From the NCBI RefSeq assembly GCF_000337595.1, contig NZ_AOIL01000009.1, forward strand, positions 73,396 to 111,662: 38,267 nucleotides of DNA, read 5' to 3'. The stretch is from Natrialba taiwanensis DSM 12281. GTDB lineage: Archaea > Halobacteriota > Halobacteria > Halobacteriales > Natrialbaceae. Numbering within the stretch: the first letter of the stretch is position 1; each line of letters starts with the position of its first letter. A program made the translations under genes and the position numbers. The notes under the pieces were generated by a model that made no database searches, was not told where the DNA came from, and worked only from the letters and a program-made list of their open reading frames with translations. Shown here one piece after another: positions 1-29,786 of the stretch.

Positions 1-453
1 TGGATCGGTGCCTCGCCGTCCAAAGAGCGCTACATCGAGAATGAGCTTCGTGTCAAGGTCTATTGCAGCGTACACCCAAGATCGGATGCTAGTAATCCTG
101 ACAGCGGTTTCATCAACCGCGACCCGCGACGGCTGCGCCGTCCTCAGAACGCAAAGCGTTCTGATGGGCCGCACGAGAGCGCCGCTCTCGTGGACGTCAG
201 CGGGTCTGGGACGCTGTCAGCCAGGCGATGTACCCAGTGCCAGATTGCTTGATGAGAGCGTTCAACGCCGAGTGAGCGAAGAATCGCTTGTGTTTCTCGA
301 AGCGAACAACCGGTCGCGTGGAGCCGGACGGCGAACGCTCCCAACATTCATCAAATTCCGCCGCGTAGCTCTTGCTGAGCAGGTCTGCGAGCATGGATTC
401 AAACTAACTCTACGACCTGCTCGTTCCTCAAACTGCGCTAACTAGACGGTGCC
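1..453 (-). mobile_element. IS6-family element remnant, cut by the window edge
   Basis: The minus strand encodes pieces of an IS6-type DDE transposase in several frames. The N-terminal piece starts at 394 (MLADLLSKSYAAEFDECWER); after a frameshift the helix-turn-helix region follows (RLHATGCSLRETQAIL, VERSHQAIWHWVHRLADS), and a third frame carries the stretch around the first catalytic Asp, then ALFGRRGTDP at the window edge. The terminal inverted repeat is at 437-453, reading inward from GGCACCGTCTAG, and is shared with the two other copies in this window. The reading frame is broken both near the N-terminus and by inserted hairpins at 144-192, so this copy cannot make an active enzyme. The left end lies outside the window. 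Confidence 0.85.
128..192. repeat. Three tandem perfect hairpins inside the IS6 remnant
   Basis: Three consecutive perfect inverted repeats occur here. 128-142 has 6-bp arms GACGGC/GCCGTC with a 3-nt loop. 144-164 has 9-bp arms TCAGAACGC/GCGTTCTGA with loop AAA. 172-192 has 9-bp arms CACGAGAGC/GCTCTCGTG with loop GCC. The first lies in normal transposase sequence; the other two interrupt the protein between its helix-turn-helix part and the first catalytic Asp. The IS6 remnant at 19792-20242 has related hairpins at the same position. Confidence 0.85.
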
Positions 454-19791: not shown

Positions 19792-20242
19792 CTAGTTGCC
19801 GGTTCTCTTAACAGGGTATTCATCAATGGCCACCCGCGGTAGCATCGCCGTCTGCAGAACGCTCCGCGTTCTGCTGTCGAGGCGAATCCGAGCTCGCCGA
19901 ACATTGGAGAACGAAATTCTCCAAATGGCCGCACAAGAGCACTGTTCCCGTGGGCGTCGGCGGGTCTGGAACACTAGCAGTGAATCGATGTATAGAGTGC
20001 CAGATTGCTTGGTGAGAGCGTTTTATGCCAACCAAGCGAAGAAGAGCATGTATCGCTCGGAGCGGACAACCGGTCGCGTGTAGCCGGATAACGAATACCT
20101 TGGCGGGGGTTACTGTCCTCTCACGCTTGCACAACTCGACAGATTTCGCCGCGTCACACTCACTGAGCAGGTCTGCGAACGGCCTGACCAAACTAGCACT
20201 CCCACCTGCTCGCTTCTCAAACTGGCCGACATAGACGGTGCC
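19792..20242 (-). mobile_element. IS6-family element remnant, second copy
   Basis: The minus-strand transposase frame 20191-19823 runs from FADLLSECDAAKS through FVIRLHATGCPLRAIHALLR and IKRSHQAIWHSIHRFTAS to SVPDPPTPTG. It then hits inserted hairpin sequence and continues in another frame as RVAIDEYPVKRTGN, around the first catalytic Asp, before ending near 19792. The terminal repeat is at 20225-20242 (inward GGCACCGTCTATG). The distal part with the other catalytic residues is missing. The architecture matches the remnant at 1-453. Confidence 0.85.
19854..19952. repeat. Hairpin cluster inside the second IS6 remnant
   Basis: 19854-19874 is a perfect hairpin with 9-bp arms GCAGAACGC/GCGTTCTGC and loop TCC. 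19904-19924 has arms TTGGAGAAC and ATTCTCCAA around GAA, one mismatch. 19932-19952 (CACAAGAGC, ACT, GTTCCCGTG) is a degenerate match, six of nine pairs, to the perfect hairpin at 172-192. The insertion point in the transposase is the same as at 128-192. Confidence 0.75.
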
Positions 20243-29767: not shown

Positions 29768-29786
29768 TACGTGTTTGTAACACGTA
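29768..29786. promoter_or_regulatory. Perfect inverted repeat at the start of the HEAT-repeat gene
   Basis: Arms TACGTGTT and AACACGTA around TGT end 10 bases before ATG 29797. The position is within the expected promoter and start-site region of a leaderless gene, so it is a good repressor-site candidate. Confidence 0.55.

Follow-up and report, generated by a model that had tools for sequence, protein, structure and literature searches.

A probable mobile double-hairpin DNA element of Halobacteria that recurs at a single site in IS6 transposase genes

The 38,267-nt stretch of Natrialba taiwanensis DSM 12281 analysed here (the window; assembly GCF_000337595.1, contig NZ_AOIL01000009.1, positions 73,396–111,662 of the forward strand) carries near its start a pair of hairpins that very probably represent a single mobile DNA element of a protein-free kind that lives in the Halobacteria. 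In this reading, the element consists of two perfect hairpins with arms of 8–11 bp and 3-nt loops, joined by a short GC..CA linker, preceded by CGTY and followed by RNGACG, and it would move as a DNA hairpin and join at GAC(G). Such elements exist throughout the class. They recur at one exact nucleotide of IS6 transposase genes, which lies at the foot of a palindrome native to the gene. Most of the transposase copies concerned are damaged, and the inserts of one genome are alike across IS6 subfamilies.

A gene for an IS6 transposase, encoded on the minus strand, has its 5′ part in the first 0.4 kb of the window (Table 1). As the earlier note had claimed, both hairpins within it are perfect 9-3-9 structures without a mismatch; on the forward strand, hairpin 2 reads TCAGAACGC-AAA-GCGTTCTGA and hairpin 1 reads CACGAGAGC-GCC-GCTCTCGTG. 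They had been described as two separate 21-bp modules, a description that we correct to one 56-nt double hairpin, interrupting the gene as TCCACGAGAGC-GGC-GCTCTCGTGCGGCCCATCAGAACGC-TTT-GCGTTCTGAGGACG with GACG on either side. Since GACG stands at either end, the element is placed equally well at 143–198 as at 139–194. The 6-3-6 palindrome reported next to the hairpins is indeed natural to the gene. Translation of the reading frames also agrees with the proposed location of the insert, after the helix-turn-helix half and before the first catalytic Asp, which belongs to the ..PSRVAVDE.. motif: the transposase frame runs from the helix-turn-helix half (..HQAIWHWVHRLADSVPDPLT) into STRAALSCGPSERFAF and ends at TGA, and the downstream half (..PSRVAVDETAV..) continues in a different frame. 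With 56 nt, a frameshift and an in-frame TGA, the hairpins do not form part of an intact, functional transposase. A seeming 66-nt tandem repeat over the window start (1–66 with C9:73329–73395) has one N between its two copies, and repeats joined by N in a similar way lie at C62:20887 and C12:21240; because of the N and the recurrence elsewhere, these are probably assembly joins, not real duplications.

Table 1. Positions of the double hairpin and associated features in the window
Feature	Position	Strand	Basis
Whole element: 56-nt double hairpin in IS6 transposase gene	139..194	−	Covariance-model match 137–198 (−), 85.8 bits; same 56 nt missing from closely related IS6 copy (L307 empty, L294 inserted)
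Hairpin 1, coding strand CACGAGAGC-GGC-GCTCTCGTG	172..192	−	Hairpin scan and family alignment
Linker CGGCCCA, subtype typical of IS6 inserts	165..171	−	Alignment of family and IS6 inserts
Hairpin 2, coding strand TCAGAACGC-TTT-GCGTTCTGA	144..164	−	Hairpin scan; same arms at 153 distinct places
Left GACG, target side, native gene	195..198	−	Empty-site comparison L294/L307
Right GACG, either tip of the element or duplicated 4-bp target	139..142	−	Empty-site comparison L294/L307
Native 6-3-6 palindrome GACGGC-GCA-GCCGTC (forward GACGGC-TGC-GCCGTC)	128..142	−	Also in empty IS6 copies; insertion point at palindrome foot
IS6 transposase N-terminal frame, enters insert, stops at insert's TGA (..SERFAF*)	144..347	−	Reading frames
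Four-hairpin version of insert in second, decayed IS6 remnant	19854..19952	−	Hairpin scan and covariance model

Perfect hairpins whose arms measure at least 9 bp and whose loop measures 3 nt are more frequent than expected. The window contains three, against 0.25 expected from first-order Markov sequences of 38 kb, and a 400-kb sample of the same genome contains 17 where about 4.5 are expected. A second haloarchaeon (G161) has 63 such hairpins against 6 expected in 400 kb, although some of the stretches sampled were picked around known copies. The window also holds a lone perfect 8-3-8 hairpin, TACGTGTT-TGT-AACACGTA (29768–29786), without the family scaffold; about one of this kind is expected by chance.

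The earlier suggestion of a mobile hairpin family of haloarchaea is supported by the distribution of the element, with the double hairpin as the mobile unit; many other insertion sites were found, so that the hairpins are not confined to this IS lineage. The exact pattern CAGAACGC-n3-GCGTTCTG occurs in 82 of 125 genomes of the same family as the host, and a reversed control pattern gave no match in them. A covariance model of the double hairpin matched 231 of 242 Halobacteria genomes; its E-values are rough, and with at most 22 candidates scored per genome the copy numbers are lower bounds. The model was seeded from a smaller alignment, a first MAFFT alignment having placed the variable hairpin wrongly. 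A scan of the genomes of 84,980 species for the exact-arm pattern yielded at least 119 stretches, most of those listed coming from many genera of Halobacteria; by inspection, the matches listed outside the Halobacteria are isolated hairpins that lack the neighbouring hairpin and the GACG scaffold. Viral contigs gave five exact matches. The 153 distinct places that were aligned, mostly haloarchaeal, have one architecture in common, namely CGTY, hairpin 1, linker, hairpin 2 and RNGACG, over some 51–56 nt. The arms measure 8–11 bp, mostly 9–10, and are varied in sequence (45 distinct octamers for arm 1 and 17 for arm 2), and the linkers include CGGCCCA, TCGCACA, AGCCA and TAGCA. Most copies have the 5′ CGTY and the 3′ GACG, the IS6 insert taking the form CGTC-hairpin1 ... 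hairpin2-GGACG.

Ordinary genes provide occupied and empty versions of the same site. In-frame copies in purA, in a gene for a Hef-like helicase and in trpC are present in only three of the seven species of the genus (this genome, G000, together with G042 and G043), and in all three genes the reading frame is kept. The purA gene of G000 has 51 extra nt, that is 17 residues (DTAEQSSASNQNASRSD), which follow a GAC codon and end in GAC; they are missing from four congeners and from the other readable orthologues. The copy in G042 is shorter by 6 nt, and that in G043 has decayed arms. A different 51-nt copy follows GAC in the Hef-like gene. The copy in trpC measures 54 nt; on the left it is flanked by GGC instead of GAC, and on the right the junction is blurred. 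A further copy lies in an HNH-type gene. From these occupied and empty orthologous sites, as compared at the sequence level, we conclude that the element is mobile. Read in the same way, it inserts at GAC(G) in unrelated genes and does so in frame in purA, the Hef-like gene and trpC, a target rule that stands on a few clean junctions (IS6, purA and Hef-like), since in many other copies the left end reads GGC and not GAC. The presence of GAC(G) at both ends fits either a target duplication of 3–4 bp or the resemblance between target and tip that is typical of transposons of the IS200/IS605 kind, which move as single strands. Another double hairpin, CGCAAAAGC / CAAAATCAC, lies within a gene that we named IS5-like transposase by reading its sequence (G000 C9:2239–2300; L025).

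In IS6, the 56-nt insert occupies one exact nucleotide in copies from three subfamilies and about 20 genomes, always as the same subtype (CACGAGAGC / CGGCCCA / TCAGAACGC). The cleanest pair, L294 (inserted) and L307 (empty), is nearly identical in the element; the whole difference is exactly 56 nt, flanked by GACG at either end. Our first sample of IS6 copies was biased because its query contained the insert, and a second sample was drawn with an insert-free query from the other half of the gene. With this query 12 of 70 copies proved to be inserted, the inserted state being called by a simple sequence pattern that strongly decayed inserts can escape. Both halves of the gene were open in 2 of the 12 inserted copies and in 32 of the 58 empty ones (Fisher p = 0.024). 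Inserted copies sit on the tips, scattered over the IS6 trees, and are mostly damaged; 25 inserted tips require 19 parsimony changes against a shuffled mean of 21.8, on a tree that also includes copies of the first sample. The earlier note had left the choice between one old insertion and a site that attracts the hairpins, and this scatter fits the attracting site better, although copying of the insert among IS6 copies may contribute. The loops of the inserts are 67% identical within and 21% between genomes (permutation p = 0.0002, all within-genome pairs), and still 69% identical between different IS6 subfamilies of one genome; the clearest case is G053, where one odd loop variant is found in three copies. 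Loop variants common to different subfamilies of one genome indicate that the element spreads within a genome to this single site, either by repeated insertion or by short-tract gene conversion. Two further IS6 copies deserve mention: in L067 (1666–1727), a further double hairpin, whose arms are different (CACGAGAAC, TCAGAAATC), lies farther downstream in the same gene, at the GTDPA codons, and L349 (G063:C110:24500–26200) aligns over its full length and has about 192 extra in-frame nt with no stop codon.

Covariation of the arms bears on whether the structure is maintained as DNA or as RNA. Arm variation with compensatory change had been named as a check in the earlier note, and it is pronounced: 539 cells have changed on both arms and 15 on one, against a shuffled mean of 121 two-sided changes. 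Despite the diversity of the arms 98.2% of pair cells are paired; fitting the alignment to the model biases such percentages in favour of pairing, and the contrast with slid controls is far larger than that bias. G.T pairs number 29 among about 2,529 paired cells (~1%). RNA-selected stems normally contain many wobble intermediates. Of 178 loops, 166 are exactly 3 nt long, and GAA, TTC, GGA and TCC are common among them; in the model-free scan of G161 they are GNA or TNC in 43 of 63 hairpins, against one in eight if loops were uniform. In single-stranded DNA the triloop C-GNA-G is unusually stable. Taken together, the two-sided changes, the scarcity of G.T and the 3-nt loops of the C-GNA-G type point to a DNA hairpin rather than to RNA selection. 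A double stem-loop kept by selection for a regulatory role in RNA, terminator or riboswitch-like, would account for the strong fold (z = −5.96 with DNA parameters) and for the many intergenic copies, but we rejected it as very improbable because one-sided and G.T changes are nearly absent; the DNA-type triloops and the insertions within coding sequence also speak against it. We give hardly any credence to the idea that the IS is still active because its transposase gene tolerates the insert through ribosome bypassing or splicing of the RNA. The 56 nt are bordered by identical ACG codons, a few inserted copies have both halves open, and inserted copies have dN/dS values lower than 1 (0.45 and 0.32). 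Those ratios are nevertheless higher than in empty copies (0.24 and 0.185), and low values can date from before the insertion; the tip position and mostly broken state of inserted copies in the insert-free sample led us to reject retained function of the transposase.

Two other explanations concern how the element reached its sites. A rare insertion into IS6 followed by gene conversion among IS6 copies could have produced the scattered pattern, and we regard this as quite possible while leaning somewhat against it. The constant subtype and nucleotide in IS6, the loops common to the inserts of one genome across subfamilies and the conserved palindrome at the site are all consistent with conversion. 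Against this, L294 and L307 agree as far as the edges of the insert: neither the 25 nt to its right nor the left flank close by shows a foreign tract. Moreover, the inserts in purA, the Hef-like gene and trpC have no such homology, so that true insertion does exist. The element might also be a non-autonomous IS200/IS605-type relic, similar to a PATE with its left and right end hairpins fused, and moved through single-stranded DNA by a Y1 HUH transposase. Palindromes near the ends, little or no target duplication, a target that resembles the right tip (GAC(G) on both sides) and stable DNA triloops would all suit such an origin, as would the copy at C12:20136, which lies just past a gene named tnpB-like by reading its sequence; fused-end PATEs are moreover described for Haloquadratum (PMC3119063). 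However, Y1_Tnp (PF01797) has no match in the genome of the window, an absence that is not absolute in an assembly 97.85% complete, and the presence of the hairpin is independent of the presence of Y1 over 125 genomes (61/21/32/11, Fisher p = 1). On this negative presence/absence test we rejected a Y1 transposase as the mover. Nor did we find a transposon bounded by the two hairpins, and we consider the relic origin doubtful. The reading that we prefer remains that of a mobile double hairpin in its own right.

Several known systems invite comparison. GTAG REPs and REPINs with their RAYT transposases are paired short palindromes with inferred single-strand mobility. The element described here is alike in its paired palindromes, but its tag is GACG/CGTC instead of GTAG and it has no association with Y1 (PF01797). 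A classical MITE has a target duplication and terminal inverted repeats related to those of a transposon; here the inverted ends are CGTC/GACG only, the repeat is a GAC(G) of 3–4 nt, and no parent transposon was identified. In the mitochondria of Allomyces, the double-hairpin elements (DHE) are mobile hairpins that encode no protein and measure a few tens of bases. The GC clusters (GC42) of yeast mitochondria are likewise protein-free and a few tens of bases long, with flanking repeats of 2–3 nt and merging (PMC4478555); neither kind has a known mover. These mitochondrial elements are alike in working to the double hairpin, whereas genomes, sequence and target differ, and we claim no homology. 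By way of working the closest kin, on analogy, appear to be the CGTC-tagged REP/RPE repeats, which include Rickettsia RPE-4/RPE-6 and neisserial dRS3 (Di Nocera et al., 2013, PMC3733652). They have stems of 8–9 bp with CGTC on one side, loops of 4–5 nt and no dedicated transposase known; they are mostly dimers with the tags outside (HH), often with two different stems, lie inside ORFs in some species, and are listed for five bacterial phyla and for no archaea. Our element shares the CGTC tag at one stem-loop end, the stem length and the dimers with outward tags; for the unpaired tail on the untagged side, which in those repeats fits CCA, the linkers seen here are GCCCA, GCCA, GCACA and GCAG. 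With regard to the mover, the comparison here covers Y1_Tnp, which has no association. Unlike those repeats, the two partners are fused into a unit of 51–56 nt with a fixed linker, the hosts are Halobacteria, and insertion recurs at one IS6 site, a behaviour that does not figure in the parts of PMC3733652 consulted. We have not filed the double hairpin with the CGTC families because its loops are 3 nt long, not 4–5 nt.

Among haloarchaeal elements, PMC3119063 describes the PATEs of Haloquadratum walsbyi as transposase-free, with palindromes near ends that are shared with IS605-type transposons, and the SMRs as likewise transposase-free elements of ~80–110 bp with terminal inverted repeats, of which SMR-A inserts into palindromes of other mobile elements. 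Host group and lack of a transposase, the palindromes near the ends of PATEs and the palindrome targeting of SMR-A all recall the double hairpin; neither type is described in the text consulted as a short double hairpin or as an in-frame gene insert. At 51–56 nt our element is smaller than the SMRs with their prominent terminal inverted repeats. As to PATEs, whose ends are common with a tnpA/tnpB transposon, one tnpB-like neighbour was seen (C12:20136) and no element with matching ends was found; PATEs are possible relatives. A search of the open-licence literature gave no archaeal description of such double-hairpin elements; in the IS6 review the word 'hairpin' is absent, and its remarks on frameshifts name no archaeal element.

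The element may move as a DNA hairpin, in single-stranded or cruciform state, and a putative enzyme encoded elsewhere could recognise the hairpin shape together with the GAC(G)/CGTC tag. Joining would take place adjacent to GAC(G), with a preference for sites where a palindrome already stands, and arm-to-arm templated repair would keep the palindromes perfect. Tentatively, we propose a class-wide archaeal DNA mobility without a transposase of its own, possible rather than probable, in which a perfect double hairpin is copied by a host or other putative enzyme into GAC(G) and homes to the IS6 palindrome, its arms being kept complementary by hairpin-templated repair and replaceable as blocks. 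Protein-free mobile hairpins are already known in bacteria and mitochondria; the present family occurs in nearly all the Halobacteria examined. The Halobacteria include the genetically tractable Haloferax and Haloarcula, and clean filled and empty sites, a recurrent target and tractable hosts make the movement of such elements directly testable. The family adds short in-frame peptides to housekeeping proteins and turns up repeatedly in broken IS6 transposase genes. For annotation, in-frame hairpin inserts of 51–54 nt that belong to it should be treated as insertions, not as conserved protein loops.

A second IS6 remnant in the window had been noted to hold related, partly degenerate units. Related hairpins are indeed found there, but they are four, not two: CAGAACGC at 19854–19874, an imperfect one near 19876–19899, TTGGAGAA at 19904–19924 and the degenerate CACAAGAGC at 19932–19952. 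We read them as a second double hairpin nested in the linker of the first. The four-hairpin form is found again at C12:8864 and in L070. In the Halorubrum-like G161, a second type of double hairpin, TGGTT-hairpin-TCATC-hairpin-CGA, is present in some copies and precisely missing from others of the same intergenic repeat scaffold (for example L459:4150–4210 compared with L468, L469 and L470), and arms are exchanged from copy to copy (GAGAGAGC or GAGACGCC). What may be a third double hairpin (GTGGCGC-tac-GCGCCAC + GTCGGC-gaa-GCCGGC type) lies in the same scaffold near position 4507 of L468, in one copy only.
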